A DNA stretch of 63,961 nucleotides from Carboxylicivirga sediminis (GTDB lineage: Bacteria > Bacteroidota > Bacteroidia > Bacteroidales > Marinilabiliaceae). The notes beneath the pieces were generated by a model. It had not been told where the DNA came from, searched no databases, and worked only from the letters and a program-made list of their open reading frames with translations. The stretch's first letter is position 1. Each line of letters begins with the position of its first letter. The position numbers and the translations under genes were made by a program. The DNA is taken from positions 1 through 63,961 of the forward strand of contig NZ_JAGTAR010000032.1 of the NCBI RefSeq assembly GCF_018156225.1. Reading direction: 5' to 3'. Positions 4,564 to 55,409 of this stretch are shown here, piece by piece.

Positions 4564-4600
4564 GCGTTACGTGTTTATGCAGCCACTTTTAAAAAAATTA

Positions 4601-4608: not shown

Positions 4609-4648
4609 TTGGTTGAGTTTGAGTGGAAAAATCCGATAAATCAGTTTT

Positions 4649-6463: not shown

Positions 6464-6495
6464 TTGGCTAGCATGAAATAGGTAATGTAATGATT

Positions 6496-6523
6496 GCCCT
6501 GGGAGTATTCCCGGGGCTTTCTT
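6496..6523 (+). terminator. Rho-independent terminator after the acyl-CoA synthetase
   Basis: A 9-bp stem (6496-6504 with 6509-6517, one G-T wobble) and a 4-nt loop are followed by a T-rich tail, 32 bp after the stop codon. Confidence 0.8.
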
Positions 6524-6574
6524 ATAATAGCCTTATGTACAGCTTGAGGTGATAAGTTGTCTGGGCTTAACTGC

Positions 6575-7153: not shown

Positions 7154-7231
7154 GATGAAGTATTATATGGGATTAATAAATTACTGAACAAAAATTATGC
7201 TGTCCGTTATCGTATTAAAAAAACCTTGACG

Positions 7232-8383: not shown

Positions 8384-8394
8384 AAAGCTGGCTT

Positions 8395-9240: not shown

Positions 9241-9440
9241 CGTTTAGAGTTGTTTTTGGGGTTAGATGATTATTTCTCAAATACATTCAACGATCCGGAT
9301 TAGACATTCGAAAGAATCGGTCGTTTGATGCATATTTAATTGTATGGAAGTTACGGACTTAATTTAAAACTTGCCTAATTGTAATTGGCAAAGAGCTTAT
9401 CTTTAATAGTATTGTTGATGATAAGGGCTTTGAAAACAAC

Positions 9441-9478
9441 AAAGGCTCTGGATATGCTCCAGAGCCTTTATTATTTTT
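9441..9478. terminator. Bidirectional terminator downstream of pgi
   Basis: A 12-bp perfect stem (9441-9452 with 9458-9469) and a 5-nt loop, with A/T-rich flanks on both sides, lie about 55 bp past the pgi stop codon. The rest of the 283-bp gap to 9240 shows nothing I can name. Confidence 0.8.
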
Positions 9479-9523
9479 ACAAGCTGCAAATAGACTCACT
9501 ACTCACATCTGTGTTCTCATCTC

Positions 9524-11203
<1,680 letters not shown>

Positions 11204-11215
11204 TCAAGAAAAGTA

Positions 11216-11246
11216 AATAGCTATTAGCTTATAGCAAACAGCTATT
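11216..11246. repeat. Degenerate AGCTATTAG-type intergenic repeat
   Basis: The pgi-gpsA gap carries a run of AGCTAT/ATAGC words that resembles the copies at 31184-31208 and 34095-34119. It may be a short dispersed repeat with weak self-complementarity. Confidence 0.35.
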
Positions 11247-12241: not shown

Positions 12242-12274
12242 AAATACAGTTGTTTTGAATTAGAATGTTAAAAA

Positions 12275-12310
12275 TAAGACAAAAAAGGAACAATTACCTT
12301 TTTTGTCTTA
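12275..12310 (-). terminator. Strong hairpin between lysS and gpsA
   Basis: Perfect 14-bp arms (12275-12288 and 12297-12310) flank an 8-nt loop, starting 15 bp after the lysS stop codon. On the minus strand the arm ends in a T-rich run, as expected of an intrinsic terminator or attenuator limiting read-through from lysS into gpsA. Confidence 0.75.
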
Positions 12311-12325
12311 ATTGATTAGTTCGTA

Positions 12326-14047
12326 TTAAGATAACCAGGCTTTTACATCGTCTTGCGATGGATTATTTAAGCCCAGCTTATTTTTCTTGTTATAGCCACA
12401 AATATCCTGGAAAACCTTTGTTGGCTTGGCTTCTTTCAAGGCATCCACCTTGCTGAAACCTACTTTGCGGATGACCTCGATCCATTCGGCAGGAATACCC
12501 AGCTCAGCAAATTTCTCGTCGCTATCTGGCAAGATGCGTTTCTCTGGGCGCATTTGCGGGAAGAACAACACATCCTGAATAGAATCAGAGTTGGTCATCA
12601 GCATGGTTAAACGGTCGATACCAATACCCATACCCGATGTTGGAGGCATACCGTACTCTAATGCGCGCACAAAGTCGTGGTCAATAAACATGGCTTCGTC
12701 ATCACCTTTTTCCGATAAACGCATCTGCTCCTCAAAACGCTCTTTCTGGTCGATCGGATGGTTTAGCTCTGAGTAGGCATTACAGATTTCTTTACCATTC
12801 ACCATCAACTCAAAACGCTCTGTTAACTCTGGGTTGTCGCGGTGGCGCTTAGCCAGTGGCGACATCTCCACAGGATAATCGGTGATAAACGTTGGTTGTA
12901 TGTAGTTGTGCTCACACTTCTCACCAAAAATTTCATCAATCAGCTTGCCTTTACCCATTGAGTCATCAATCTCAATTTCCAGCTCACCACATACTTTGCG
13001 CAACTCTTCTTCGTTCATGTCCGATACATCAATGCCTGTATGTTCTTTGATAGAATCAAGGATAGAGATGCGTTTGAATGGGCGTTTGAAATCAATCGTT
13101 TTATCACCTACTTGCAATTCGGTTTTATCATGCAGGTCAAGGGCGATTTTTTCCACCATCTCTTCGGTGAAGTCCATCATCCATTTATAATCTTTGTAGG
13201 CCACATAGATTTCCATCACTGTAAACTCAGGGTTGTGGGTACGATCCATACCTTCGTTACGGAAATCCTTGGCAAACTCATATACACCATCAAAACCACC
13301 AACAATTAAGCGCTTTAAGTAAAGCTCGTTGGCAATACGTAAATACAAAGGAATATCCAAGGCATTGTGGTGTGTAATAAATGGGCGCGCTGCAGCCCCA
13401 CCCGGAATTGATTGTAAAATTGGTGTTTCTACCTCCAGGTAGCCACGTTCGTTGAAGAACTGACGCATGCTGTTCATCAGCTTGGTGCGTTTGATGAATA
13501 CATCTTTAACGCCTTCGTTAACGATTAAGTCAACATAGCGCTGGCGGTAACGCAACTCAGGATCGCTGAATGCATCATACACCTTGCCATCTTTTTCTTT
13601 AACAATTGGCAGTGGCTTAAGTGATTTACTCAGGATAGTCATCTCCTGCACATGGAGGGTGGTTTCGCCCATTTGTGTCTGGAAAATAAATCCTTTTACG
13701 CCAATAATATCACCAATATCCAACAGTTTCTTGAATACGGTATTATATAATGTTTTATCCTCACCCGGACACATATCGTCGCGGTTCAGGTAAATCTGAA
13801 TACGCCCTTCGGCATCTTTTAGCTCGGCGAAAGAAGCTTTACCCATGATACGTCGGCTCATGATACGTCCGGCGATCACCACCTCTTTCAGGTTATCTTT
13901 TTCAGGATCAAATTCCTGTTTTATCTCAGTTGACAGATGAGTGGTTTTAAATTCTGCTGCCGGATACGCGTTAATACCCAGCTTGTTTAGCTCTTCTAAA
14001 CTTTTTCGTCTGATAATTTCCTGTTCGCTCAGTTCCAACGTACTCAT
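12326..14047 (-). CDS. lysS: Lysine-tRNA ligase, class II
   Basis: Charges tRNA-Lys. The 573 residues comprise an N-terminal OB-fold anticodon-binding domain (about 55-160, with [21 protein letters not shown]), the class II catalytic core (motif 2 near [15 protein letters not shown]; motif 3 [12 protein letters not shown]) and a C-terminal extension of about 70 residues that many Bacteroidota LysS proteins carry. It is the first gene of the lysS-gpsA-pgi set and has its own -7 box at 14137-14144. Start [11 protein letters not shown] fits the leader spacing. Confidence 0.97.
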
Positions 14048-14136
14048 TCTATTAATCTATTTTTAGAACATTACTAAAATGACAGATTTGCCTGTCAACC
14101 GTTATTATTTCGCTTGTAAAAAGTGAAAAAGTTTTG

Positions 14137-14144
14137 CAAAGATA
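14137..14144 (-). promoter_or_regulatory. -7 box upstream of lysS
   Basis: TATCTTTG on the minus strand, a perfect TAnnTTTG match 90 bp before the lysS ATG. No convincing -33 TTG is seen. Confidence 0.5.
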
Positions 14145-14216
14145 ATGGTTTTCATCGAATTTGGTATTTTGTCATTTATAAGTTGACACACAATTAGTTT
14201 ATTTAACAGCTTGGAG

Positions 14217-14224
14217 TACATTTG
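14217..14224 (+). promoter_or_regulatory. -7 box upstream of the HAD phosphatase gene
   Basis: TACATTTG matches TAnnTTTG and ends 18 bp before the ATG at 14243, implying a very short leader. Confidence 0.5.
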
Positions 14225-14242
14225 TTATAAAAATTGCATGGT

Positions 14243-14869
14243 ATGAAAACGATTGACTTTTCGGCTGTTGATGCCTATTTGTTTGATTTAGGAGGTGTTA
14301 TTGTTGATATTAGTCCACAGGCTGCCATTGATGCCTTTGCCGCTTTAGGTTTCGTTAGTATGCAAAAGCACATTACACAAAGCCATCACGAAGGATTATT
14401 CAAACAATATGAGATTGGTGCTATAAGCGATGATGAATTTATTGCAGCCATTCAAAGTGAGCTGCCAAACGAGGTAGAGCCTAATCAGATAATAGCTGCC
14501 TGGAATGCTATGTTGGTGAGTTTGCCAAATGAACGCGTAACCTTGCTAAATAAGCTTCGCAATGAAAAACCTGTTTATTTATTGAGCAATACCAATGCCA
14601 TACATCGCAAAGCATTTATAGGCATGGCAAACGATTATGGTAATCTTGAAAAATTGTTTACTGATGTATTCTATTCCTATCGGATGCAATTAAGCAAGCC
14701 CGATGTTCGCTCGTTTAACTATGTGATTGAGAAGACCAATATTGTTCCTCGCAGGACACTGTTTTTAGATGATTCGCTCGCCAATCTGGAGGCTGCAGCC
14801 AGCTTAGGATTTCAAACTGAGTTGGTGACACAGGAAAGGGGTGTTTTAGAAATATTTAACGGATTGTAG
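14243..14869 (+). CDS. HAD-superfamily hydrolase
   Basis: A 208-residue haloacid dehalogenase-like phosphatase, subfamily IA with a helical cap. Motif I is FDLGGVIVD near residue 15, with the usual D-x-G/D variant in which a glycine occupies the second position (DLGG), as in the YihX/epoxide-hydrolase N-domain group. Motif II is LLSNTNAIH, and motif IV is LFLDDSLANLEAA. The core resembles glucose-1-phosphatase YihX, but the substrate cannot be set. I use the ATG at 14243 rather than the TTG at 14234 because it lies right behind a -7 box. The gene is divergent from lysS. Confidence 0.85.
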   Translation: MKTIDFSAVDAYLFDLGGVIVDISPQAAIDAFAALGFVSMQKHITQSHHEGLFKQYEIGAISDDEFIAAIQSELPNEVEPNQIIAAWNAMLVSLPNERVTLLNKLRNEKPVYLLSNTNAIHRKAFIGMANDYGNLEKLFTDVFYSYRMQLSKPDVRSFNYVIEKTNIVPRRTLFLDDSLANLEAAASLGFQTELVTQERGVLEIFNGL

Positions 14870-14939
14870 TTCAATGTAAGGTAGATCTTGACTTTTAAAA
14901 TATAGGTTAATAAATTTATTGATAATATATTGTATTATC

Positions 14940-15767
14940 ATGAATCGACTAACCTTAACCTTTTGTGTGGCAGTGCTTACTGGAGCGCTTACATTTGCTC
15001 AAACCATAGACTATTCAGGACCCGTCAGCGCTGCTTTGGGTTTTACAAAAGTGTTTGACAATTCCTCCATGTCAGGACTTAATAATGTGGCTAACCTGGC
15101 TTCATTTGAACATTATGCAGTAGGAGCCGCCTATCAGATGCGTTTCAATATGGATGAGATGAGTGCGCGGGCCGCAACGCTAGTAGCGCCTACCAGGTTG
15201 GGTACTTTTGGAGGTGTCATTTTTCAGAGTGGCTATTCTAAAAGCAATTATAGTCGCTACGCCTTTAGCTACAGTCGTTTGTTTGGTGAAAAAGTTTCTG
15301 CCGGTCTGCAGTTTAATTACCTGACTCATCAAATAGAAGGGGCCGATCCGGCCAATTCCTTTTATACGAGCCTTGGGTTTAACTTCCTGATATCGGAACA
15401 GTGGGCTGTTGGAGTCTTTATACAGAATCCGGAACAGAGTCAACTCAGTTACCAATCCACCAGCTATGTAATACCTGTTTTATTCAATGCGGGTTGCCGC
15501 TGGCGCCCTACTTCGCATTTTATGTTGATTGTAGAGACAGAAAAGCAGCTTGAGCGCAACCTTATTTATAAAACAGGAATTCAGTTTAGTTTTAATGAAC
15601 GGCTGTTTGTGCGTGGAGGTATTAAAAGCAACCCTGTTGAAATGACCTTTGGAGGGGGCGTTCGCTTTGCTGGATTATTCATTGACGCTGGTTTTGCACA
15701 TCATCAGCAGTTAGGAATGACTTCAGGAGTGGGACTGAGCTATTCATTTAACCGAAAACACCGTTAG
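14940..15767 (+). CDS. PorV/PorQ-like outer-membrane beta-barrel protein
   Basis: A 275-residue exported protein. The signal peptide ends at TFAQ, and the mature chain starts SGPVSAALGFTKVF... with SMSGLNNVANLA, the pattern of the PorV/PorQ (UPF0164) family of FadL-like barrels. Repeated amphipathic strands end in VGLSYSFNR. PorV-type proteins act in type IX secretion as substrate shuttles; PorQ is an auxiliary. Here the gene is paired with a second barrel gene 1 nt downstream, and no other por genes are in the window, so a T9SS role is only suggested. ATG 14940 is chosen because it opens directly on the signal peptide. Confidence 0.65.
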   Translation: MNRLTLTFCVAVLTGALTFAQTIDYSGPVSAALGFTKVFDNSSMSGLNNVANLASFEHYAVGAAYQMRFNMDEMSARAATLVAPTRLGTFGGVIFQSGYSKSNYSRYAFSYSRLFGEKVSAGLQFNYLTHQIEGADPANSFYTSLGFNFLISEQWAVGVFIQNPEQSQLSYQSTSYVIPVLFNAGCRWRPTSHFMLIVETEKQLERNLIYKTGIQFSFNERLFVRGGIKSNPVEMTFGGGVRFAGLFIDAGFAHHQQLGMTSGVGLSYSFNRKHR

Positions 15768-15768
15768 T

Positions 15769-17793
15769 ATGAAGCGCTTGTTCTTTTTACTCACAGTCTG
15801 CCTCATACCTTTTGGTGTTATTTCACAACAAGCCGGAGACATTCAAAAACTCATTAGTGACATGCTTGAATCTTTAGCTGATAAACAATTGCTAAAAGCC
15901 GACTATGAAGAGCTGGTGAACGACTTAATCGCCTTGAATCAGCAGCCTATCAACCTCAATACCGCCACTAAAAGTGATTTGGAGCAATTGTTTTTCCTGA
16001 CTGACTACCAAATAGAAAACTTCCTGTACTACCGCTATACCAATGGGCCGCTTTATAGTATATATGAGCTGCAGGCTGTTGAGCGGATGGATAGCCTCAC
16101 AATTAGAAATATGCTGCCTTTTGTGGTGGTTGAGGAATTAGGTAGTGCTCCATCCAAACGAGTGATGGGTCAAATCATGGCGCGTGTCCAAAGTACTATT
16201 CAAACACCACTTGGCTACAAGCCTAAAAATGACTCAGTAGCGGCTGCTTACCTGGGAGGAAAAGAGAAATGGATGACCCGCGGACGTATTGGGTTTGGCG
16301 ATAAAGTGGAAGCTGGTTTTACATTGGAGAAAGATCAGGGCGAGCAAGCTATCCCGGAGTATTTCCCGGCAGCTGACTTTACATCAGGTTTTCTGCGACT
16401 TAATCAGCCTTTGAAGTTTATTGATACATGGATAGTCGGCGACTATCGCTTGTCCTTTGGACAGGGGCTGGCTGTGTGGACTGATATGGCCTTTTCCAAA
16501 TCGCCTGAAACGGCACAGTTACGCCGTCGTCCCAAAGGCATTAACTCTTACACATCGGTTAACGAAAGCTCTTTTTTAAGAGGCACAGCCTTGCAGCTTA
16601 AATTTGGCAGGTGGATGGTTGCACCATTCGTGTCCTATAAAAAACGCGATGCTTCGACATTGGAAGACTCGGTGGAGAATCAGTATTTATCCTCTTTACA
16701 AGAAACCGGTTATCATCGCACAGTAACCGAGCTATCGAACAGGTATGCTGTTAATGAACTGGTGTATGGTGGGCGTATTGGGTATCACCATCATTTATTT
16801 CAGCTGGAAACAGGGTATGCTAATTGGTCCGTCGATCAAGCGATTGCTCCCAAAGAACACCTGAAGGACAAGTACCGATTTACCGGAAGCGACCAGGAGA
16901 GTGTATGGCTGTCTCATTCCATTTTTCTGAACAGACTGATGATTTTTGGTGAAGTGGCGCTGCAGAACCAGGTCGATTATGGTATTTACCAGGGGATGAC
17001 CTACAATGCGGGAAGCGATGTGGTGGTTTCCTTTGCTTATCGGAAATACAGCAGAGGATATACTGCCATTTTATCGAACCCATTCTCCGAATCATCAACA
17101 CCGGCTGGCGAGTCGGGTTTATTCGCATCCATGAGTTTTAAGCCACTGGCAAAATTGGAACTAAAGGCCTTTGCCGATGTGTTTTCATACGATTGGTTGC
17201 GATACAATGTGTACCGCCCTTCCGATGGATTCGAATGGTTTTTACAGGCCGATTATCGTATTAATGATGTTCATTCGGCTTATTTGCGCTATAAGTCAAG
17301 TCAAAAGGAGATTAATGGCTATCAAAGTACCGCCAATTATGAGATTAACACCTATCAAAAGGATAATATCCGCCTGTTTTATGCCTTAAATTCCAGTGAG
17401 AAGTGGCGGTTTCAAACCCAAATTGAGTATGCCTTTTACAATGAGAGCGAGCAGGAGTCGAACGGTTGGATGGCCTTTCAGGATGTCCGGTTTAAGGCTA
17501 GTCAAAGTTACATTATGTCGTTGCGTTATGTGCTGTTCGACATCGATGATTATGACAGTCGCATCTACAGTTACGAACCCGATGTGTTGTATGCCTTTAC
17601 CATACCGGCCTATCTCAATGCTGGTTCTCGCGTAATATGTAATCTGAGTTATTCGCCACTGCCAAATCTTCGTCTTTGGGGCCGCCTTGCTCACACAAGT
17701 TATACTAACCTTGAAGAGATAGGTTCTGGTAATCAGTTAATCAAAGGCCATCAGTTCACAGAGTGGAAACTTCAGCTTCAATATCGCTTTTAG
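15769..17793 (+). CDS. Helix-hairpin-helix domain outer-membrane barrel protein
   Basis: A 674-residue exported protein. After the signal peptide (ends about residue 20) comes a ComEA/PulK-like helix-hairpin-helix domain (about 45-110: LNQQPINLNTATKSDLEQLF, then TNGPLYSIYELQAVERM). The remaining 550 residues are an aromatic-rich beta-barrel ending in WKLQLQYRF, with the C-terminal Phe typical of outer-membrane proteins. This architecture is common in Bacteroidota but uncharacterised. A periplasmic HhH is usually a DNA- or protein-binding element, so DNA uptake is one idea. The gene follows the PorV-like gene with a 1-nt gap, so the two are almost certainly cotranscribed. Confidence 0.75.
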   Translation: MKRLFFLLTVCLIPFGVISQQAGDIQKLISDMLESLADKQLLKADYEELVNDLIALNQQPINLNTATKSDLEQLFFLTDYQIENFLYYRYTNGPLYSIYELQAVERMDSLTIRNMLPFVVVEELGSAPSKRVMGQIMARVQSTIQTPLGYKPKNDSVAAAYLGGKEKWMTRGRIGFGDKVEAGFTLEKDQGEQAIPEYFPAADFTSGFLRLNQPLKFIDTWIVGDYRLSFGQGLAVWTDMAFSKSPETAQLRRRPKGINSYTSVNESSFLRGTALQLKFGRWMVAPFVSYKKRDASTLEDSVENQYLSSLQETGYHRTVTELSNRYAVNELVYGGRIGYHHHLFQLETGYANWSVDQAIAPKEHLKDKYRFTGSDQESVWLSHSIFLNRLMIFGEVALQNQVDYGIYQGMTYNAGSDVVVSFAYRKYSRGYTAILSNPFSESSTPAGESGLFASMSFKPLAKLELKAFADVFSYDWLRYNVYRPSDGFEWFLQADYRINDVHSAYLRYKSSQKEINGYQSTANYEINTYQKDNIRLFYALNSSEKWRFQTQIEYAFYNESEQESNGWMAFQDVRFKASQSYIMSLRYVLFDIDDYDSRIYSYEPDVLYAFTIPAYLNAGSRVICNLSYSPLPNLRLWGRLAHTSYTNLEEIGSGNQLIKGHQFTEWKLQLQYRF

Positions 17794-17897
17794 CCCGTGT
17801 GATTAAAATTGCATAAAATGCTGCCACGAAAGCCAGCGTTAAGCTATTCCTATTTCGAATCATTTGCTATTTTTACAGTGAACAAATCACCTGTATC

Positions 17898-18341
17898 ATG
17901 GAAAAGAAGAAGGAAACAGCCATTGAAGCCTTTTACAATGGCCATAACTGCGCACAATCGGTTCTGAAGGCTTATGCAGATGAGTTAAAGTTTGACGAGG
18001 AACAGGCGCTGGCTTTAGCGCTAGGGTTTGGTGGGGGAATGGGTAAAATGCAGAAAGCCTGCGGAGCTGTTACGGGGGCTTATATGGTGATTGGATTGCG
18101 CAATTCAAAGGCCATTGCCGATTTTGATGAGCGAAAAGAGAAAACCCCTGAAATGGTGCAGGCCTTTCGCAAGCAGTTCTGTCAACGGCACCAGACCGAC
18201 CAGTGCGTCCACCTTTTAGGTTGCGATATACGCACCGATGCAGGCAGACAATACTTCAATGATCACAAGTTGAAAGACAAGGTTTGCTCCAAGTGCATTG
18301 AGTCTTCGCTACAGATATTGGATGAACTTTTTAAACACTAA
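17898..18341 (+). CDS. C_GCAxxG_C_C family protein
   Basis: A 147-residue single-module member of the family whose duplicated form is at 8395-9240. Conserved cysteines are Cys18 (GHNCAQSV), Cys55 in KACGAVTGA, and the C-terminal group Cys95, Cys103, Cys109, Cys130 and Cys133. The glycine-rich stretch GFGGGMGKM precedes the GCAxxG-like motif (here ACGAVTG). It is 3 nt upstream of sbcD, which suggests cotranscription with the SbcCD nuclease, although no functional link is known. A redox or metal-binding role is assumed for the family. Confidence 0.9.
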   Translation: MEKKKETAIEAFYNGHNCAQSVLKAYADELKFDEEQALALALGFGGGMGKMQKACGAVTGAYMVIGLRNSKAIADFDERKEKTPEMVQAFRKQFCQRHQTDQCVHLLGCDIRTDAGRQYFNDHKLKDKVCSKCIESSLQILDELFKH

Positions 18342-18344
18342 TGC

Positions 18345-19559
18345 ATGCGAATACTTCATACCTCAGATTGGCACATTGGGCAAAAGTTACATGGTAATGA
18401 TCGGGAGGAAGAACATCAACTTTTCTTCGATTGGCTGAAGCAAAAGATTAATGAATTACAAATAGATGTTCTATTGGTGGCTGGTGATGTTTTCGATGTG
18501 GGTTTCCCATCCAATAGTGCGCTTAAGTTGTATTATAACTTTTTGACCTCTCTCATTCATACGCACTGCAGCCAGGTGATCATTACAGGAGGTAACCACG
18601 ATTATATCAGCACACTTGAAGCACCTTCTGAAATACTTTCGGCCTTAAACATACAGGTAATAGGCGGTGCCAAATCATCAATTGCAGATGAAATTATTGA
18701 GCTGGCTGTTAACGGACAAACCGAATGCGTAGTAGCGGCCGTGCCATTTTTACGCGATAAAGATATCCGGCAGGTGAATGCGGGGGAGTCCTATGAAGAC
18801 AGTGTGAAAGCTACCAATCAAGGTATTGTCAAACATTATGAGCAAGTAGCGGCAGAGGCGAAAGCATTTAAGTGCCCGATAATTGCCATGGGACACTTGT
18901 ATGTGCAGGGGGCTGGGTTATCGGACAGTGAGCGCGATATTCATATAGGTAACCTGGCGGGTTTGCAGGCAACATCATTCCCCAATGTATTTGATTATGT
19001 GGCCTTGGGGCACATTCATCGGCCCCAAAAGTTATCGGCTGATGGAAAAATACGCTATTCAGGTTCACCCCTGCCTTTGAGCTTCTCAGAGCGAAAGGAT
19101 AATAAGCAACTGGTGTTACTGGATGTACGAAAGGATCAAACAATCGAAATGGCAGAGCTAAAAGTCCCCAGTTTCAGAAAGCTTATTCGTGTAAGCGGCA
19201 CCTTTGAGGAGGTGAAAACAGCATTAAAAAACTACCGGGGAGAATCACAACTGGCCGATTGGGCCGAAGTGCTTGTTGAGGAAGAGCAAATGGATACGGC
19301 CATTCGCCAGAGTTTTGAGAAACTGATTGAGGAAACAAATCAGGCTGACAACAATTTGATGGTGATAAAACCCTTGCTGAAGTTTGCAGGAGGGAATGAA
19401 ATGGATGATAGTGTTGTAACGACTTCCTTGAGTGATTTAAGTGTACAAGATGTATTCAACAGCCTTTTGGACAATAAACAAGTGAGCAACGTCGATACCC
19501 TTAACCAAACATTCGCCGAATTGTTGGATCAGTTTTATCATCAGACGGAAAAAGAATAG
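18345..19559 (+). CDS. sbcD: DNA double-strand break repair nuclease SbcD
   Basis: The Mre11-type subunit of the SbcCD complex, which trims DNA ends, removes protein blocks and opens hairpins. The 404 residues start with the metallophosphoesterase motif TSDWHIGQKLHG (6-17), followed by AGDVFDVG, GGNHDY and the ALGHIHRPQ motif that supply the Mn ligands. The C-terminal part is the capping domain that contacts SbcC. The ATG at 18345 has a 3-nt gap after the preceding gene, and sbcC starts 3 nt after the stop. Confidence 0.95.
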   Translation: MRILHTSDWHIGQKLHGNDREEEHQLFFDWLKQKINELQIDVLLVAGDVFDVGFPSNSALKLYYNFLTSLIHTHCSQVIITGGNHDYISTLEAPSEILSALNIQVIGGAKSSIADEIIELAVNGQTECVVAAVPFLRDKDIRQVNAGESYEDSVKATNQGIVKHYEQVAAEAKAFKCPIIAMGHLYVQGAGLSDSERDIHIGNLAGLQATSFPNVFDYVALGHIHRPQKLSADGKIRYSGSPLPLSFSERKDNKQLVLLDVRKDQTIEMAELKVPSFRKLIRVSGTFEEVKTALKNYRGESQLADWAEVLVEEEQMDTAIRQSFEKLIEETNQADNNLMVIKPLLKFAGGNEMDDSVVTTSLSDLSVQDVFNSLLDNKQVSNVDTLNQTFAELLDQFYHQTEKE

Positions 19560-47640: not shown

Positions 47641-47650
47641 TAGATAACAA

Positions 47651-47680
47651 CAGGCCGCTCAAGGGTTGAGGAGCGGCCTG
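47651..47680. terminator. Hairpin between convergent operons
   Basis: Exact 10-bp GC-rich arms CAGGCCGCTC and GAGCGGCCTG enclose a 10-nt loop. It lies between the convergent 47640 and 47717 gene ends and may stop both. The T-tract is weak. Confidence 0.65.
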
Positions 47681-47716
47681 TCTGGAAAATCAAGTTTAAC
47701 TGATTAAAAGGGTATT

Positions 47717-48556
47717 TTACGATACAACCTTATTGGAGGTCACCCACTCGTTGTAGGCTCCATCATATACTTTCACATTTGTATAACCCAATTTGGTTGT
47801 CATTATAGTATACAGCAAACCGGCACGCGTGCTGGTCTGGCAATACAGAATCACTTCCTTGTCTTTTGTAACGCCTTTGGAAGCAAACAGCTTGTTTAAA
47901 TCTTCAGCTGATTTAATCAGGCCTTTGTCATCGCGCATCAAATCAGAGTTGATGCTGATGGCACCTTCTATATGGCCTTTGCTTTTAGGATCGGTACCAT
48001 TGAAATAGTTATCAGCGCGCGCATCCACCAATACAACGTTGCTTTTAGCTTTTTGGGCCTTTACATCATCCATAGTCAGGTAACTTGAACGGTCCACATT
48101 AGCTGTTACGGTCGTTTTCTTTGGCATTTTTGGCATGCGGGTAACCGGTTTGCGGGCTGCTTTCCAGGCATCCAGATTGCCATCAAGCAGTTTTACATTG
48201 CTGGCACCCATCATTTTCATAATCCAATACATACGGCCGGCATTGCTGCCTTTATTGCAGTACAATACAATTTCTTTGCTGAAATCAACACCATGAGCGC
48301 CCATTACCTTCGCTATTTCAGCATCACTTTTCAGGATACCTTCAATGGGTGTTTTGGTCGATAGCTCTTCAACCGGGAAACTGACAGCGTTACGGATGTG
48401 TACTTGTTTGTATTCGGCTTCTTTGCGTGCATCAAAAATCTGCACTTTAGAATCATTGATTTTACCCGCTAATTCTTTAACCGAAATAAAATCACCCTGT
48501 GCAACTGCTCCTATGGTATAAATAACAAGGGCAGCTACTATACATAGTTTCTTCAT
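47717..48556 (-). CDS. Exported tandem rhodanese (sulfurtransferase)
   Basis: A 279-residue periplasmic protein with a signal peptide (MKKLCIVAALVIYTIGAVAQ) and two rhodanese domains. Both carry an active-site cysteine: Cys100 in YCNKGSNAGR and Cys239 in YCQTSTRAG. In most tandem rhodaneses only the second domain is active, so two live sites are unusual. It should move sulfane sulfur (from thiosulfate or polysulfide) to an acceptor. It is the last gene of the minus-strand sulfur cluster, 18 nt after the porin, and is probably cotranscribed with it. Confidence 0.88.
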   Translation of the reverse strand: MKKLCIVAALVIYTIGAVAQGDFISVKELAGKINDSKVQIFDARKEAEYKQVHIRNAVSFPVEELSTKTPIEGILKSDAEIAKVMGAHGVDFSKEIVLYCNKGSNAGRMYWIMKMMGASNVKLLDGNLDAWKAARKPVTRMPKMPKKTTVTANVDRSSYLTMDDVKAQKAKSNVVLVDARADNYFNGTDPKSKGHIEGAISINSDLMRDDKGLIKSAEDLNKLFASKGVTKDKEVILYCQTSTRAGLLYTIMTTKLGYTNVKVYDGAYNEWVTSNKVVS

Positions 48557-48574
48557 CTCTTTGTTGTTTATCGA

Positions 48575-49594
48575 TTAAAATTTCACTTGTAATTGTACAT
48601 ACAAACCATCGTTATTGCCTTCAACCGGCTCCTCGGCACGATAGAGGTAGTTCACTTGCAGACGTGTCCAGTCGTTGAAAAAGTAATTGGCACCAAAGGT
48701 CATGATGTCCTCGCGATAGTCGTTGACTCCGGCATCAAAGAACTCATATTTAAAGACTGGTTCAACATTCCATTTGGTCATGTACATGGCTTGCACGTAT
48801 GCACCTTTACGCTCATCGCCAAGGGCAATCAATTCGCCACCGCAACCACCGCCCAGTGAGCGATCGTATTCGCCTTCGTCAACAATGTATTCACCCATTG
48901 CTCTGAAGGGACCATAATTGAATTCGGCCTCCAAAGCATATGATGTGCGCTTATCATCGTCATTGGTTGGATAACCCAAACGATAACTACCACCTACGTA
49001 TAAGAAATCAAGCGGATGGAATACGGCACGGGCAATAATGTCTTTTGAATTGTTATTGTCCTTCTTCAGGCCAGCACCATTCATATAAGCCAGGCGATAC
49101 TGGAAGAACGTGCTGCGGTCGCCACCCAGCACCATTATGCCTAAGTCGCGCTGTGGCACCACCAGCTGATCAACTGCCCGTGAGCGGAAAATGGTATTAA
49201 TACCACTACAGGCTGTACCACCCAAATCCATACTAAAAGGATTTTTGAATGAACCCATGGAAATTTTCGCCCAATCCCATCGGCCATAAGTAATAAATGC
49301 ATCTAGTAGATAGGCACTTCCGTTGCTGCTGAGCATAGGACTCATTTCCATTACCACATAATAGGAGAAGTCGTAAGGGATGTTACCGGTCGCTCCTAGT
49401 CGTGCTCTTCTAAAGCTGAACGAGCTGGTTGTTTCGTCGGTAAACTGTTGGTCGTATTCGGCCTGTAAAAACCCGAATATTTTTAGTGCTTCATCACTCC
49501 CGGCTGCTTCTTCGCAGCCCTGCGCCAACAAGTTAGCGGGCAACAGCAGACAGGAAGCCAAGATGAGTAGAATAATATTTTTAGTCATGATCAT
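48575..49594 (-). CDS. OprO/P-like outer-membrane porin
   Basis: A 339-residue porin of the phosphate-selective (OprP/OprO) family: signal peptide ending LLAQG, the FSFRRARLGATGNI segment typical of the second strand, and a C-terminal VQLQVKF with terminal Phe. Mature cysteines Cys27, Cys129 (GGTACSG) and Cys251 (GGGCGG) are rare in porins and could be redox-active or form a disulfide. In this cluster the porin presumably admits thiosulfate, tetrathionate or a similar anion. A hairpin (49610-49637) separates it from the upstream rhodanese gene. Confidence 0.88.
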   Translation of the reverse strand: MIMTKNIILLILASCLLLPANLLAQGCEEAAGSDEALKIFGFLQAEYDQQFTDETTSSFSFRRARLGATGNIPYDFSYYVVMEMSPMLSSNGSAYLLDAFITYGRWDWAKISMGSFKNPFSMDLGGTACSGINTIFRSRAVDQLVVPQRDLGIMVLGGDRSTFFQYRLAYMNGAGLKKDNNNSKDIIARAVFHPLDFLYVGGSYRLGYPTNDDDKRTSYALEAEFNYGPFRAMGEYIVDEGEYDRSLGGGCGGELIALGDERKGAYVQAMYMTKWNVEPVFKYEFFDAGVNDYREDIMTFGANYFFNDWTRLQVNYLYRAEEPVEGNNDGLYVQLQVKF

Positions 49595-49609
49595 TTAATT
49601 AAGATGGGA

Positions 49610-49637
49610 AAAAGAAGCCGCTCCTCGAAGCGGCTTT
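49610..49637 (-). terminator. Internal hairpin before the porin gene
   Basis: Arms AAGCCGCT and AGCGGCTT (49615-49622 and 49629-49636) form an 8-bp stem, and on the minus strand a T-rich run follows. It lies 9 bp after the stop of the 331-residue rhodanese gene, so it may partly end transcription there and set different levels of upstream and downstream genes. Confidence 0.75.
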
Positions 49638-49645
49638 ATCTCGGA

Positions 49646-50641
49646 TTACTGCTCAAGTGGTAAATTCTTAGGGTTTGAATCGCCTCTCCACTGGTTGGCG
49701 GTCCATGCATCGCTTGAGTTTGATAGTTTATTCATACCAAACTTCAGGCTGTAGGCATCATAACCCAGTACGCGCAGGTATGCAGTAATAACAGCTGATG
49801 TTTGACCGGTGTAGCAATAGGTAACCACCTTCTTTGAAGGATCAAGGTTGGTTACAGCAGCTTCCTCTGTTGAGCTGGGGCTAACTAATAAAGGATTCAT
49901 TCGGTAAGCTCCATCTACATGCCCGAAAGCACTGTAGTCGGTTGTATTAAAATAGTTATTGATAAAGTATCCGCTAGGGCTTCCCAAAACATCTGAAGCT
50001 TCAACTCCTTTGAAGCCTTGAGATACGATGTATTCAATACGCTCTTTTAGAATAGCTTCACCTTCTGTAGCTGTAGAGGTGAAAGCAGGAGCATCGTATA
50101 CACCTAAGGTAGGTTCGCTGGCATTAAACGTCCAGTTTGAGTGACCATCACTAATATCGGCTATGGCATTATCCCATGGGCCGGCGGTAGCTTCGTTCCA
50201 ACCAGACATTCCCCATTTTAAGGCCTGTGCATCGTGGTAACCATATAGCCTTAATAATGAAGTTGCATAGCAAGCCGTTTGGCCGGTATAACAAACCACT
50301 AATATTGGCTTGTCTGCTTTGGCAGCTTCAGTCAGGATGTTTTTAAAATCAGGTACGTTAACCGCATTGGTGATATGGCCAGCATTAAAAGCTTCAGCGC
50401 TTCTGATATCAATGATATACTTGCTGCTCACATTACCATCGGCCGGTGCGCCCATCACAAATTTTTGCCCATCACTGTTTTTGATAACATGGTTCAGATC
50501 CATATCAATCTCCACCAGGTAGTCCATCAATGTTTCAGCTGGATTTGTAGTTGTGGTAGGATCATTGTCGTCCTTACATCCGGTAAAAACTACTGCGCTG
50601 ATAGCCAGCATAAAAAAGAAATAACGAAATAGATTTTTCAT
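49646..50641 (-). CDS. Tandem rhodanese lipoprotein
   Basis: A 331-residue lipoprotein (lipobox VFTGC, Cys22) with two rhodanese domains. Each holds the active loop CYTGQT (Cys117 in VVCYTGQTAC and Cys276 in YCYTGQTS), so both halves seem active. The linker contains an extra domain-like segment (about 175-245) with no motif I know. Attachment to the envelope puts its sulfurtransfer chemistry on the periplasmic side. It lies 61 nt downstream of the single-domain rhodanese gene in the sulfur cluster. Confidence 0.85.
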   Translation of the reverse strand: MKNLFRYFFFMLAISAVVFTGCKDDNDPTTTTNPAETLMDYLVEIDMDLNHVIKNSDGQKFVMGAPADGNVSSKYIIDIRSAEAFNAGHITNAVNVPDFKNILTEAAKADKPILVVCYTGQTACYATSLLRLYGYHDAQALKWGMSGWNEATAGPWDNAIADISDGHSNWTFNASEPTLGVYDAPAFTSTATEGEAILKERIEYIVSQGFKGVEASDVLGSPSGYFINNYFNTTDYSAFGHVDGAYRMNPLLVSPSSTEEAAVTNLDPSKKVVTYCYTGQTSAVITAYLRVLGYDAYSLKFGMNKLSNSSDAWTANQWRGDSNPKNLPLEQ

Positions 50642-50702
50642 AACTTAAAGGATTTAATAATTAAAGAATTGTATGTATTTACATTATTGTTAGAATCAAT
50701 TT

Positions 50703-51212
50703 TTAGCAGCCACCGCCATCATCATGTTTGGCAGGTCCGCCAGCCAGCATTTCCAGGTTCTTATCGCAAAAATCGGGGTAGGTGAGTTCCCAGTTTTTCC
50801 AGCCTCCTTCAAGCACATAGACTTTTTTATAGCCCATCTGCATCAGCGTTTGTGCAGCTAAAGTGGAGCGCTTACCTTTTTTACAGTAGAGGAAAAGCAT
50901 CTCCTCTTTTTGAGGAACATATAAGCCTTCTGCTTCCCAAAACGCTTCGGTGCCAATATTGAACTCCATACTGCCGCGAGGAATATTAACAGCGCCAGGA
51001 ATGAATCCATGATAATGTTCATTGCTTTGGCGTACGTCGATGACTGAAAATATCTCTTCAGATTCCATCGTTTTCATTAAATCGGCTGGTGTTGTGTAGG
51101 TCACCACTTTAGAGGCTGATGCCACCATGTCGTCAACACTCAGGTTGCCGGATTGTGTCTGGCAGCTCATTAAGGCAGCCAGGCACGAGATGTATACAAA
51201 TAATCTTTTCAT
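50703..51212 (-). CDS. Single-domain rhodanese lipoprotein with GGGC tail
   Basis: A 169-residue lipoprotein (lipobox LMSC, Cys17) with one rhodanese domain and active-site loop YCKKGKRS (Cys110). It ends with HDDGGGC, an unusual flexible C-terminal cysteine on a glycine arm. This could act as a swinging persulfide carrier that collects sulfur from the active site, as an idea only. The preceding cytochrome b gene ends 5 nt upstream. It is the first rhodanese of the cluster. Confidence 0.85.
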   Translation of the reverse strand: MKRLFVYISCLAALMSCQTQSGNLSVDDMVASASKVVTYTTPADLMKTMESEEIFSVIDVRQSNEHYHGFIPGAVNIPRGSMEFNIGTEAFWEAEGLYVPQKEEMLFLYCKKGKRSTLAAQTLMQMGYKKVYVLEGGWKNWELTYPDFCDKNLEMLAGGPAKHDDGGGC

Positions 51213-51217
51213 AGTTG

Positions 51218-51832
51218 TTAGTTTGTAGCAGTTTCAGTTTCTTCATCAAGCTCTTCATAGCCTGTTATCATGGCCTGAAGGTTGGAAGTAATCGTATGTC
51301 CTGTTGTAATGAGGTAGAGGTGCGCCAACACGAAGGCGACCAGCAGAAAGGCGCCCAGTGTGTGCAGCACTGCAATGGCCTCCAGCCCTTCAAAAGCAAA
51401 TGGCTTATCAGGATAATGAAAGAACAGGTAAGAGAATCCGGTAATCAATTGCACCGGAAATACCAGGATAATCAAACCAAAATAGATGATGCGCTGAAGC
51501 GGATTGAGCTTGCTATCGGCAGTCTTCTTCACCGGATGAGGTTCTTTCTTGAAAATGCCCGATATGTAATACATTATTTGGGATTTGATATTGTTGCGCA
51601 CAGGCACAAATTGTCGGCTCTGGCCGGTTACCAGCATCCAGAAGATGGCGAAGATAGTCAGTATCAGAAAGGCCCATCCGGCAGCTGAATGCAGACGCAC
51701 TGAGGTTTCAAAGCCGAATGCCTCAAAGGTGCCGTGGATTTCAAACCCGGTGATGATTAATAGTAGGATGAGCATCATTTGTGTCCAGTGCCAAAAGCGC
51801 TCAAAGCGGCTGTATATTTTTACTTTTTCCAT
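51218..51832 (-). CDS. Cytochrome b membrane subunit (thiosulfate reductase type)
   Basis: A 204-residue protein with four membrane helices (about 14-30, 45-68, 113-133 and 151-175). The likely b-heme ligands are His15 (FWHW), His48 (VRLHSA), His157 (VLHTLG) and His171 (AHLYL), in the PhsC/Ni-hydrogenase cytochrome b pattern. It should oxidise quinol and pass electrons to the periplasm. It is placed directly behind the octaheme cytochrome gene (2-nt gap), so the two form a quinol-cytochrome unit. Confidence 0.87.
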   Translation of the reverse strand: MEKVKIYSRFERFWHWTQMMLILLLIITGFEIHGTFEAFGFETSVRLHSAAGWAFLILTIFAIFWMLVTGQSRQFVPVRNNIKSQIMYYISGIFKKEPHPVKKTADSKLNPLQRIIYFGLIILVFPVQLITGFSYLFFHYPDKPFAFEGLEAIAVLHTLGAFLLVAFVLAHLYLITTGHTITSNLQAMITGYEELDEETETATN

Positions 51833-51834
51833 AG

Positions 51835-53430
51835 TTATCGGTTTTTGAAATAGGCAACAAGGCGCCCAAAGAAGTGTGCTACAATACCAATTAGGGTCAT
51901 GAAGATGAGACCAAAGCCTGCGTAATCAACCGATTTGTTGTAATCGCGACCAGGTAAGTAAAAGTCATTGAGTTGCGCCAGACGGCCATCGCGGCTGTGA
52001 CATTCGGTACAGCTAAGTGTTTCCTCTTTAGGCGACACCATGTGGTTGATGGGCCAGTATACTTCTGAGGCGATAAAATCATAGTTGCCACTGTAAGGGC
52101 GATTGTTATACTCCATACCCAGGCGTGCAGCTGTATCCCAGTCAAAATCCTTCCAGAAGGCGCCTTCGCCTTTCTCAGCTGCCCACAGCTTCAGGCTGAT
52201 GAGTGTGTTGTTCCCGGTATCGTAGATTTGCTTGCCTCGGTGCACTTTCACCGGCCATATCTTGGCGGTTGAATCGCGGTAAGCACCAAACAGGCTGTTG
52301 ATTTTAACCGGTACTTCCGTAATAGTGTCAGAAGACAGGTAATGATCAACAGTACCGTTGAACCAGTAGTATTCAGGCTTTACATGGTCGTCCCACACAA
52401 AATTACCTTTGATGGATAAGTAGTTGTGGTTGCCATCAGCATCATCTTCAGAGTAGCCATTACCATGGTCGTCGGTTAGCCCGGCCGATGACCAGTCCCA
52501 GTAGAGCTTGGTAGCATTGGCTTTGGCATAGATGGGTATATGACAGGTTTGGCAGGCAACCTTCTCAAAATGGTTGTCTAATACCTTGTCATTATGGGGT
52601 GTTGTTGTGTGGCACTGGTCACAATGTATACGATTAGTATTGGCCGATGAAACCGAATACAATTTACCCATGATGTTATGACGTTCGGTTGTATGGCAAT
52701 CAATACAGGCCATATCAGGACCGTCCATGGCCATGTGCACATCCACTTCTTTTGTGCACGATAACAGTGCCTCCTCGAGATCCCCATGCTTCACATTGTT
52801 ACCACCACCACCATAAAAATGGCAGATCCCACAGTTATTTTTCTTTGGCAAACCAACGTTCTGAGCTACGTAAGGATAATCGGGCACCTGATATGCTGAG
52901 TTGGCTGTTTCGGCAGTTGCCGGCATACCACCTTGTCCTTTTTGTTTAAAATACGTGTCAGTCTGATCATGACACACTAAACAGTCAATGTTGCGGTTGT
53001 CGGCAAAATCAAAACTTTTATCTTTCCAGCCCAAACCAATGTGGCAACGCATGCAGGAGCCATTATTACCATTGGCACCTGTACAGAAATTATTTAACAG
53101 GTTCTTTTTACCTACCGAAACAACTCCCCGGCCAGGAATTTCCTCTTCACGCTCCCATTTCCAGTGTGCAGTGGCCATTATTTCTTCATCGCGGCCTGTG
53201 TGACACGATAAGCATGCAGCTGTCACATCATGCGGTGTTTCAAAATCCTGCTGAAGGATTTCAAATTGCGAATGGTCTACCGATGAAATGTGTTCGGCCT
53301 TAAGCTTAACATCCACTACATCAGGGGTGCCCTTATGGGCAGCAACCTTTAAGGTTAACAGCAATACGGCAAGCGGGAGCAGTAAACTTACCAATAAAGC
53401 CATCACTGATTTCGAGAATTGATTTTTCAT
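51835..53430 (-). CDS. Octaheme c-type cytochrome (tetrathionate reductase family)
   Basis: A 531-residue protein with eight CXXCH motifs at Cys73, 126, 150, 200, 242, 270, 293 and 474, the layout of the octaheme tetrathionate reductase (OTR) family first studied in Shewanella. OTR reduces tetrathionate and, in vitro, nitrite and hydroxylamine. A signal anchor (about 9-28) and a C-terminal helix (about 503-525) hold it at the membrane. I set the start at the ATG at 53430: the frame runs upstream to 53541, but that part lacks signal-like sequence. It is the first gene of the sulfur cluster, transcribed with the cytochrome b. Confidence 0.9.
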   Translation of the reverse strand: MKNQFSKSVMALLVSLLLPLAVLLLTLKVAAHKGTPDVVDVKLKAEHISSVDHSQFEILQQDFETPHDVTAACLSCHTGRDEEIMATAHWKWEREEEIPGRGVVSVGKKNLLNNFCTGANGNNGSCMRCHIGLGWKDKSFDFADNRNIDCLVCHDQTDTYFKQKGQGGMPATAETANSAYQVPDYPYVAQNVGLPKKNNCGICHFYGGGGNNVKHGDLEEALLSCTKEVDVHMAMDGPDMACIDCHTTERHNIMGKLYSVSSANTNRIHCDQCHTTTPHNDKVLDNHFEKVACQTCHIPIYAKANATKLYWDWSSAGLTDDHGNGYSEDDADGNHNYLSIKGNFVWDDHVKPEYYWFNGTVDHYLSSDTITEVPVKINSLFGAYRDSTAKIWPVKVHRGKQIYDTGNNTLISLKLWAAEKGEGAFWKDFDWDTAARLGMEYNNRPYSGNYDFIASEVYWPINHMVSPKEETLSCTECHSRDGRLAQLNDFYLPGRDYNKSVDYAGFGLIFMTLIGIVAHFFGRLVAYFKNR

Positions 53431-53740
53431 ATAAATTGGATTTGAAGCAAAATTAGCTTTGAAGAATTTTTTCTCTATATAAAAGTGTCTGCAACAAAAC
53501 GCGGATCGGATGGTAACTTTTGGCGGCTTTATATGATCCAAATCAAGGAAAAGTATGATGCGTTACGGTCAAAAGCTTGCAACAAAACGTATGTATATAT
53601 GTATAATTGCAATGATGAATATATATAATTAGATAGTAGTGACGGTTATGGTTGATTATAAGTAGGTTTAACATGAGTAATGTCATGATGGTAATAATCA
53701 TGTTTTAAGTATATTTACCTAACCCTTAAAAGCTAAAGAA
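53431..53740. other. Divergent control region of the sulfur cluster
   Basis: This 310-bp region lies between the octaheme cytochrome and Crp/Fnr genes. It has a TAATTTTG -7 box on the minus strand (53448-53455) for the cytochrome operon and inverted repeats at 53672-53702 in front of the regulator. No ORF is seen. Confidence 0.55.
53672..53702. promoter_or_regulatory. Overlapping inverted repeats, candidate regulator site
   Basis: Two overlapping inverted repeats: CATGA-GTAATG-TCATG (53672-53687) and CATGAT-GGTAATA-ATCATG (53684-53702). They end 39 bp before the Crp/Fnr ATG. Spacing and symmetry suit a dimeric regulator, possibly autoregulation by the encoded protein. Confidence 0.45.
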
Positions 53741-54436
53741 ATGCCAAAATCAGTTGTTTATAACGGATGTTCAGTGGGAGAGAATCCACTATGTTGTTTT
53801 GATAATTTGACAGATGATGAAATTGCATTTGTTGAAAAGAACAGTGTTGAGGTGGAGTATAAGCGTGGTGAAACAATATGCAAGCAAGGAGCATTTGCCT
53901 CGCACATTATGGTAATGAAAGAAGGCCTGGCCAAGATTTACCTGGAGAATGGCAATGACTCATTGATTCTGAAAATACTACCTGCAATTAATATTATTGG
54001 TTTACCCGCTTTATTTGATGGGAATAACACCTTCCCGTATAGTGCACAGACCTACATGGATTCAACCGTTAAGCTTATTGAAATAGGCGCATTCAAAAGC
54101 TTAATAGAGAACAATGCTCATTTCGCAGTACAGATTATAAGTCTGCTGGCCGAGAATTCTGTCATTATTAATGGTCGTTTCTTCTGCTTAACCAAGAAAC
54201 AAACCTATGGTCGTTTGGCTGATGTGTTATTATGCCTGGCCCAGCGTATTTATAAGCAGGATAAATTCCCGCTGCAACTTACCCGCAAGGATCTGTCTGA
54301 ACTGGCCAGTATGTCTATTGAAAGTACAACGCGCATTTTAACGAAGTTTAAAGAGGAAGGACTGATAGCCATTCACTGCAATGAGATAGAGATACTCGAC
54401 CCGGATAAATTACTTGAAATTAGTGCGATTGGTTGA
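53741..54436 (+). CDS. Crp/Fnr family transcriptional regulator
   Basis: A 231-residue regulator with an N-terminal cyclic-nucleotide-type beta roll (about 27-125: RGETICKQGAFASHIMVMKE), a dimer helix, and a C-terminal winged helix-turn-helix (about 170-215: LTRKDLSELASMSIESTTRI). Cysteines Cys10, Cys18, Cys19 and Cys47 cluster near the N-terminus, which could bind an Fe-S cluster as in FNR, though the spacing is not that of FNR. Divergent from the octaheme cytochrome operon, it probably controls that operon in response to oxygen or sulfur. Its 3' end overlaps the convergent hutG-like gene by 17 nt. Confidence 0.88.
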   Translation: MPKSVVYNGCSVGENPLCCFDNLTDDEIAFVEKNSVEVEYKRGETICKQGAFASHIMVMKEGLAKIYLENGNDSLILKILPAINIIGLPALFDGNNTFPYSAQTYMDSTVKLIEIGAFKSLIENNAHFAVQIISLLAENSVIINGRFFCLTKKQTYGRLADVLLCLAQRIYKQDKFPLQLTRKDLSELASMSIESTTRILTKFKEEGLIAIHCNEIEILDPDKLLEISAIG

Positions 54437-55409
54437 TCTGTTGTTCAATAATGGCATTGATGACGGCATAAATATAGACGGCAATTAATTTGGCTGTTCG
54501 GTTATCCGCATCAAAGCGGGGCGATACTTCTGCAAAATCAATGCTGCACACTTTACCGGTTTTTATAATGCTCTTAATAAGCTGAAGAACTAAGTCAGGG
54601 TCCAGTCCAAAGGGCTGTACGGCAGATACGCCTGGCGCATGGGCTGCCGAAAGCACATCGGTACATAGTGTCAGGTAAACGGCATCTTTGTCGTGCAGGT
54701 AATAGTGTATTTGCTCATCTACCTGAGAAATATGGGCCGCGGTTATCTCTTTGGCCAAAATATACCGGGCGCCCATTTCATCGGCTTTAGCAAACAAACT
54801 TTGCGTGTTGGCATAGGTCTGTGGTCCGACGCATAAGTAATTAAACGGCTGTTGGAGTTGAGAACAGATTTCATGAATCTGATTAAACATAGTACCCGAT
54901 GAACCTTTATCCTGCACAGGTCTTAAGTCGAGGTGAGCATCAAAATTAACTATAGCAGGAGCTGCTCCTTTTGATTGAAGTATGCCATTGAAATGACCAA
55001 GCGCTATCTCGTGACCACCTCCCAGTAATATGGGGAAATAGCCATGTTCCAAAATCAGCTGTACCGCCTTGGCTAAAGCTTCCTGGGCTTCTTCAAGATT
55101 ACTGTCTGTACAGGTAATGTTACCGGCATCAAACAGCTGGGCATGCGGGTGGCAGTTGGCCGGCCAATTCGCCATTTCCTTACGAATGCTGGCCGGGCCT
55201 TTGGCCGCACCCGGTCGTCCCAGGTTTCGCTTTACACCTTCGTCGCAACAGAAGCCTAAGAAACAGATATTTATCACCGCGCTATTGGCCTTTACTGGTT
55301 GGTTGAGGTTCAATGGATGGACGATCTGGTGCCATCTAAAAGCCATTGGATCACTGATGCTATCTATTCGTCCTTGCCAGGCTGTTGGCTGCTGGTATCT
55401 GATGTGCAT
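54420..55409 (-). CDS. Formimidoylglutamase-like ureohydrolase
   Basis: A 329-residue ureohydrolase (arginase fold) that cleaves formimidoylglutamate in histidine breakdown. Metal ligands: His133 in GGGHEIALGHF, DAHLD (Asp157, His159, Asp161), and Asp251. The usual first Asp of the DxD pair is Cys249 (LCTD), followed by APGVSA. The C-terminal signature SIDFAEVSPRFDADNRTAKL matches formimidoylglutamase better than arginase or agmatinase. No other hut genes are in the window, so the role is inferred from sequence. Confidence 0.78.
   Translation of the reverse strand: MHIRYQQPTAWQGRIDSISDPMAFRWHQIVHPLNLNQPVKANSAVINICFLGFCCDEGVKRNLGRPGAAKGPASIRKEMANWPANCHPHAQLFDAGNITCTDSNLEEAQEALAKAVQLILEHGYFPILLGGGHEIALGHFNGILQSKGAAPAIVNFDAHLDLRPVQDKGSSGTMFNQIHEICSQLQQPFNYLCVGPQTYANTQSLFAKADEMGARYILAKEITAAHISQVDEQIHYYLHDKDAVYLTLCTDVLSAAHAPGVSAVQPFGLDPDLVLQLIKSIIKTGKVCSIDFAEVSPRFDADNRTAKLIAVYIYAVINAIIEQQINQSH

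Follow-up and report, generated by a model that had tools for sequence, protein, structure and literature searches.

An octahaem cytochrome of the tetrathionate reductase family and its rhodanese partners in Bacteroidota: a candidate cysteine-terminal sulfur-carrying arm

The contig NZ_JAGTAR010000032.1 of Carboxylicivirga sediminis, analysed here over its 63,961 nucleotides (the window), contains a run of six genes that begins with an octahaem c-type cytochrome of the tetrathionate reductase family (OTR) and continues with a cytochrome b, three proteins of the rhodanese fold and a porin. We somewhat favour the view that this operon supports an anaerobic, quinol-fed respiration of sulfur oxyanions, in which rhodanese-fold proteins carry sulfur on an arm like that of SoxY. 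The link of the cluster to sulfur is well supported; the chemistry of the arm is putative and is drawn by analogy. OTR, YeeE, rhodanese and porin are of known kinds, and the cysteine-terminal arm may be a new class of carrier. In its full form, a periplasmic carrier feeding OTR, Phs/Psr-like molybdoenzymes and YeeE importers, with the rhodanese thiol moved from the catalytic loop to a cysteine-terminal arm, this last suggestion is tentative, being possible rather than probable.

The features that the argument needs are given below; gene calls are from our own open reading frame finder.

51835..53430, minus strand: OTR, c-type cytochrome with eight haems, tetrathionate reductase family (TIGR04315, alignment with 1sp3, eight CXXCH motifs)
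51218..51832, minus strand: CYB, cytochrome b561/PhsC-like quinol-side subunit (PF01292)
50703..51212, minus strand: RH1, single-domain rhodanese lipoprotein whose C-terminal arm is flexible (Pfam, alignment, AlphaFold2)
50706..50717, minus strand: codons for the terminal GGGC of RH1 (last GGC invariant, 35/35 rows)
49646..50641, minus strand: RH2, lipoprotein with two rhodanese domains and an acidic export-like signal past the lipid cysteine
48575..49594, minus strand: POR, channel of the Porin_O_P family, distantly ExtI-like (PF07396; NF040900 below cut-off)
47717..48556, minus strand: MST, two rhodanese domains in tandem behind a hydrophobic N-terminus, predicted to be exported
53741..54436, plus strand: divergent Crp/Fnr-type regulator (PF13545, PF00027; Cys10 and Cys165 invariant, 29/29)
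53534..53546, minus strand: FNR-type box TTGA-N6-TCA between the regulator and OTR genes (box in 18/29 loci)

The seven genes, strands and positions included, are as a preliminary description of this DNA had them, and so are the five rhodanese domains. RH1 has one of these, RH2 two and MST two, and a loop cysteine is present in all five. The whole genome has 17 rhodanese matches, five of them within the cluster.

A conserved terminal cysteine beside the octahaem cytochrome

RH1 ends in GGC in all 35 aligned proteins (the window and 34 named loci), whereas the cysteine of the catalytic loop is kept in 28, with Asp at this position in six and Ser in one. A Pfam scan of RH1 found PF00581 only, and the SoxY fold PF13501 was not matched. 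In an AlphaFold2 model built from 35 sequences the rhodanese domain is ordered, and the tail, residues 160-169, has pLDDT values below 50 and is classed as disordered.

The neighbouring cytochrome belongs to the OTR family, scoring 577.1 bits on TIGR04315 against a cut-off of 375. Its open reading frame of 568 codons opens at a TTG, but translation probably starts further downstream, at the ATG at 53430. The protein contains eight CXXCH motifs and hydrophobic stretches at residues 4-34, at the N-terminus, and 500-528, a C-terminal membrane helix. It aligns with Shewanella OTR (1sp3) over 428 residues (E 5.2e-128) with the haem motifs kept, and the lysine at 1sp3 chain position 153, a position counted by hand in the chain alignment, is present in 14 of 14 OTR rows including that of the window; we take this residue to be the haem-ligating lysine of the active site. 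The window genome holds one OTR. The cytochrome b matches PF01292 with 106.7 bits, and proteins of this kind pass quinol electrons to a partner. Its score on the PhsC model NF011582 (107.4) is below the equivalog cut-off of 204. Six histidines are invariant across seven aligned rows, so that the four histidine ligands proposed earlier are plausible, though the exact four are not pinned down.

Gene order was compared in 80 named OTR loci, the best 80 of at least 573 relatives; these are the loci nearest to the window OTR and the window arrangement is therefore over-represented among them. The order OTR-CYB-RH1-RH2-POR-MST is found in 23, all with a divergent Crp gene; in one of the 23 (L190) a second Crp gene lies inside the run. 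Of 34 family loci that were fetched, nine have this order, eight of them with Crp, and the two sets overlap by at least four loci. The order thus recurs beyond chance. RH1 without the full order occurs in a further 11 named loci, several at contig ends. A cytochrome b lies within 3.5 kb downstream of OTR in 77 of the 80, a rhodanese or YeeE-type partner is encoded on the same strand in 77, and such a partner bears a GGC-type tail in 76. These assignments used a rhodanese profile built from the window domains and their hits, and PF04143 was run on a few YeeE-type proteins, among them three at OTR loci, with the others assigned by similarity to three of those few. YeeE/YedE (PF04143) is a family for thiosulfate uptake (PMC13047784; this and the other papers cited are represented by excerpts). 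The recurrence of the gene order, on which the preliminary description had staked its interpretation, is thus observed, and the counts also uphold its route from quinol through cytochrome b to the octahaem protein and its sulfur role.

Records bearing RH1 come from Carboxylicivirga, Labilibaculum, Marinifilum breve, Draconibacterium, Lentimicrobium and Cyclobacteriaceae, and the closest named OTR among the matches listed is that of C. mesophila (98%). OTR is present in 27 of 60 genomes searched, counting the genome of the window, and in all 13 other members of the genus. The genus contains two kinds: the window arrangement is found in 10 of the 13 members (one split between contigs, one cut short), a second kind of OTR-cytochrome b pair in 10, and both in seven. 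In the phylum-wide set, an OTR scoring above the cut-off occurs in 55 of 395 genomes. An evenly drawn phylum sample was taken of 58 of the 59 over-cut-off places besides that of the window (G327 was left out, and two below-cut-off places are excluded from the 58); in 35 of these OTR is accompanied by a tailed YeeE-rhodanese protein, with the tail in 35 of 35.

In a tree of OTR (83 rows, quick method) the neighbourhood tracks the clade. Clade A comprises 35 rows with RH1, clade B 26 rows in which YeeE is fused to a rhodanese, and clade C, a single supported clade, 16 rows with an RH2-like protein and mostly then YeeE, while four rows have no assigned partner state. The three states need two changes on the tree, the minimum possible. 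OTR and cytochrome b are the core of the module, and the sulfur partner changes from one OTR clade to the next. In the open-licence literature searched we found no description of an OTR-cytochrome b-rhodanese/YeeE module of Bacteroidota, nor of the cysteine-terminal arm. The earlier remark that the combination is not a described system holds to this extent. The system does not stand alone, as Bacteroidota commonly combine the pair of OTR and cytochrome b with sulfur partners of other kinds.

The tail recurs in all three clades. By tail and lipobox patterns of our own definition, it is present in 16 of 16 tailed RH2-like proteins of clade C and on YeeE in 15 of 15 cases in clade C and 25 of 26 in clade B, the one without it (L209) having its sequence cut off. 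In clade A, with its tailed RH1, it is found in none of 30 RH2 and two of 26 MST proteins. All 40 intact YeeE-rhodanese proteins have Ala, Ser or Gly at the position of the catalytic cysteine and all 40 have the tail (GGC, at times with one extra residue), the cysteine of which is the only one after residue 200 in 26. As a control, the tail was found in none of 37 rhodaneses encoded at the 30 loci that scored best in other Bacteroidota; these are the best matches of 30 of 118 genomes and represent typical rather than divergent rhodaneses. Among 4044 other open reading frames of OTR loci 12 have the tail, and these mostly appear to be further rhodanese or YeeE-type genes.

Predicted places and a proposed route for sulfur

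A lipobox could be read in 28 of 35 RH1, 25 of 27 RH2 and 14 of 16 tailed RH2-like proteins. All 25 readable RH2 proteins of clade A have at least two acidic residues at +2 to +6 past the lipid cysteine, and 24 combine these with Lys at +2 or +3. None of the 28 readable RH1 proteins has an acidic export-like signal, and the lysine and acidic features occur jointly in none of 14 tailed RH2-like proteins of clade C. In Bacteroidota an acidic signal past the lipid cysteine directs lipoproteins to the surface, with an optimum of Lys at +3 in Capnocytophaga and a consensus of acidic residues at +3 and +4 in B. fragilis (PMC5080379). Because the export-like signal is on RH2 and mostly not on the tailed proteins, a surface location is predicted for RH2, and for most of the tailed proteins one facing the periplasm, where OTR is also predicted to be. 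The earlier idea of three rhodaneses moving sulfur survives in part, since their predicted places differ and the cysteine-terminal arm of RH1 had been overlooked.

In the scheme that we propose, cytochrome b would draw electrons from (mena)quinol and pass them to OTR, tethered to the membrane and facing the periplasm. RH2 at the cell surface and the porin would capture and admit sulfane-sulfur compounds (polythionate, polysulfide or thiosulfate), MST would shift sulfane sulfur within the periplasm, and RH1 would hold sulfur on its GGC arm as a persulfide or S-thiosulfonate. The arm could then deliver its load to the octahaem active site in the manner of SoxY, where OTR would reductively split the S-S bond. 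In the other clades the arm would be that of the tailed RH2-like protein, of YeeE or of both, and YeeE would import the released thiosulfate or sulfur. The Crp/Fnr regulator, in which Cys10 and Cys165 are invariant in 29 of 29 sequences, may switch the operon through the FNR-type box, which is seen between the two genes in 18 of 29 loci against 0.71 expected from shuffles, with a pattern that was picked after viewing one alignment.

SoxYZ and SoxT resemble this arrangement in having a Gly-Gly-Cys on a swinging arm, in a motif of the exact form GGCGG, and a YeeE-type importer as partner. They differ in that RH1 has the rhodanese fold, with PF00581 only, and that the enzyme next door is a reductase-type cytochrome. 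The YeeE-like SoxT1A has been proposed to accept sulfur from persulfidated SoxYZ (PMC11582611), and in lucinid symbionts soxY adjoins otr (PMC11237559). In Dethiobacter an octahaem relative of SirA and Otr lies by rhodanese genes and is upregulated on thiosulfate; it has just 20-23% identity to Otr/SirA, and the excerpted description contains no porin-cytochrome b-rhodanese set (PMC10376724). The Shewanella enzyme, for all its similarity in sequence, haem motifs and Lys 153, differs from the window set, which has a C-terminal membrane helix on OTR, a cytochrome b gene, rhodaneses, a porin and a Crp/Fnr gene; the Shewanella enzyme interacts with the soluble STC (PMC4484225).

If the carrier class in its full form is real, OTR-family enzymes of Bacteroidota would act on a protein-bound S-S bond and not on free tetrathionate. 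If the arm carries sulfur, the SoxY carrier logic of sulfur oxidation extends to reduction, on another fold and in a common Bacteroidota module. Outside Shewanella, OTR-family cytochromes are, in the excerpts at hand, named tetrathionate reductases by homology alone, and a conserved terminal cysteine on a partner protein makes the question of their substrate testable.

Tailed rhodaneses also occur away from OTR. One of nine other rhodaneses of the window genome is tailed, and it adjoins two YeeE halves and a Phs/Psr-like set. Here (L249, C122, positions 2364-6955) genes for a Phs/Psr-like molybdoenzyme (cut by the stretch), a ferredoxin and NrfD precede the two YeeE halves and the Cys-tailed rhodanese, which has no catalytic cysteine. 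The molybdoenzyme piece is nearest PhsA but below the cut-off (463 bits against 694), and the set may carry out a following step of sulfur reduction in this organism. Relatives of this rhodanese were taken from 30 loci, the best-scoring of 54 matching genomes among 296. All 30 have Gly-Cys at their end, at times followed by a further residue, 17 with GGC-type and 13 with EGC or DGC ends; YeeE is adjacent in all and the catalytic cysteine absent in 29, the exception being L374. Twelve are OTR-linked fusions already counted, and 18 lie away from any OTR place that was found. Phs/Psr sets thus share the tailed rhodanese and YeeE halves with the OTR loci, but use a molybdenum enzyme where the window has an octahaem cytochrome. 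The 13 loci with EGC or DGC ends (L358-L379) mostly have a lysine-rich stretch ahead of the arm. In one run (L311, positions 8597-18837) a Phs/Psr-like set is joined by a porin, by two each of RH2-like proteins and GGC-tailed rhodaneses, and by two YeeE halves, so that the accessories are shared and the reductase is another.

Contrary evidence and alternative explanations

Several observations weigh against a carrier dedicated to OTR. The genome of L311 is not among the OTR matches and yet has tailed rhodaneses, and the occurrence of tailed rhodaneses with YeeE away from OTR implies that YeeE or Phs/Psr, rather than OTR, may be what the arm serves. Conversely, 23 of the 58 OTR loci of the phylum sample have no YeeE or rhodanese neighbour: 13 include a cytochrome b gene, and of these 12 belong to a single family, f43; the other 10 encode short OTRs and lack cytochrome b. 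Among plasmid records there were five Proteobacterial OTR cases, and in the two loci examined, from Paracoccus and Photobacterium, a cytochrome b is adjacent and no rhodanese or YeeE was seen nearby. SoxY was considered as the missing arm in f43 and rejected, being present in 7 of 13 genomes with OTR and 12 of 18 without (leaving out G074, in which the OTR match has stop codons). Charge complementarity between the arm and the haem II region of OTR was likewise rejected: the last 15 residues have a mean net charge of -2.2 in RH1 and +3.6 in YeeE of clade B, acidic in the one and basic in the other. The predicted places have exceptions too, as the tailed RH2-like protein of L070 carries both export-signal features and the lysine of RH2 is mostly at +2, one off the +3 optimum described for Capnocytophaga. 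Finally, a decahaem cytochrome adjoins RH2-like proteins in 15 of 20 fetched non-OTR loci, so that RH2 by itself is no proof of a sulfur substrate.

The simplest alternative is that OTR reduces free tetrathionate to thiosulfate, which ordinary rhodaneses split, and that the terminal cysteine is structural, a metal site or a disulfide site. Shewanella OTR does reduce tetrathionate, and also nitrite and hydroxylamine (PMC4484225), all five window rhodanese loops have their cysteine, and OTR loci without tailed neighbours occur. Against this, the terminal cysteine of RH1 outlasts the catalytic one (35 against 28 of 35), the tail is kept in 40 of 40 intact YeeE fusions, none of which has the catalytic cysteine, and supplies the only cysteine of its region in 26, and the arm is disordered in the AlphaFold2 model. 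We regard this explanation as unlikely, though it merits serious consideration. The two further activities of the Shewanella enzyme raise nitrite or hydroxylamine as the substrate, but the window genome has an NrfA-family protein (PF02335, 598 bits), with matches in all 13 other members of the genus, so that nitrite has another enzyme, and the partners at OTR are of sulfur type, though no search for nitrogen genes was made there; such a role seems highly improbable. The system might also run in reverse, with thiosulfate oxidised and loaded on the arm and electrons passed to the quinone pool. A SoxY-like arm would suit this direction, and the S-S step is reversible. The divergent Crp/Fnr gene and the FNR-type box fit anaerobic respiration instead, and reduction is also indicated by the Phs/Psr-like set that a tailed rhodanese accompanies in this genome. 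We therefore consider oxidation very improbable.

Selenite, the alternative substrate named in the preliminary description, belongs with tellurite or metal reduction of the kind associated with the Geobacter ext cluster, the porin acting as oxyanion gate. That cluster does combine a rhodanese, a Porin_O_P-like porin and cytochromes (PMC5877670), and the frequent decahaem neighbours of RH2-like proteins are in keeping with it. The porin (PF07396, 56.1 bits) has ExtI (NF040900) as its sole NCBIfam match and MST has ExtH among its matches, but the scores, 58.9 bits against a cut-off of 150 and 51.7 against 200, fall far short; in the NCBIfam scan no operon protein reached an ext cut-off. MST is also below the equivalog cut-off of the 3-mercaptopyruvate sulfurtransferase model NF008557 (118.1 against 250). 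The cytochromes are other than those of ext, OTR being a TIGR04315 protein, and the sister clades have YeeE partners. We consider an ext-like role improbable, and selenite finds no backing in these scores, which leaves the first interpretation as a whole partly supported.

Transcription unit and further observations

The six genes lie on a single strand with intergenic gaps of 2, 5, 61, 51 and 18 nt, which suggests a single operon. Two possible stem structures lie within or at the end of the run.

47650..47681: inverted repeat with perfect arms of 11 bp at the operon's 3' end, a possible terminator
49615..49636: terminator-like stem between the RH2 and porin genes

The region has eight terminator-like stems against 6.2 expected, and its promoter-like sites, 17 against 17.3, do not exceed chance. 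Given the stem between RH2 and the porin, the level of porin and MST may differ from that of the genes upstream. Beyond the regulator, hutG (formimidoylglutamase, over its cut-off; window positions 54420-55409) converges on the Crp/Fnr gene, the two overlapping at their 3' ends, and hutG also adjoins the Crp/Fnr gene in seven fetched loci of the genus.

Variants of the OTR locus include L188 and L200, which have tandem OTR genes, the first with its own cytochrome b, and GGGCD-tailed rhodaneses upstream; in L200 a second cytochrome b was not seen up to the contig end. In L240 (positions 3467-9056) an OTR-cytochrome b pair is followed by small membrane genes that, judged by eye, resemble an Mrp-type antiporter. 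Among RH2 proteins, that of Marinifilum breve (L197) has four rhodanese domains in 624 residues. Fifteen loci (L312-L326) combine RH2-like double rhodanese lipoproteins with a decahaem cytochrome, and several add a 14-haem cytochrome and a 444-residue regulator-like protein, a set that looks like one for extracellular electron transfer.

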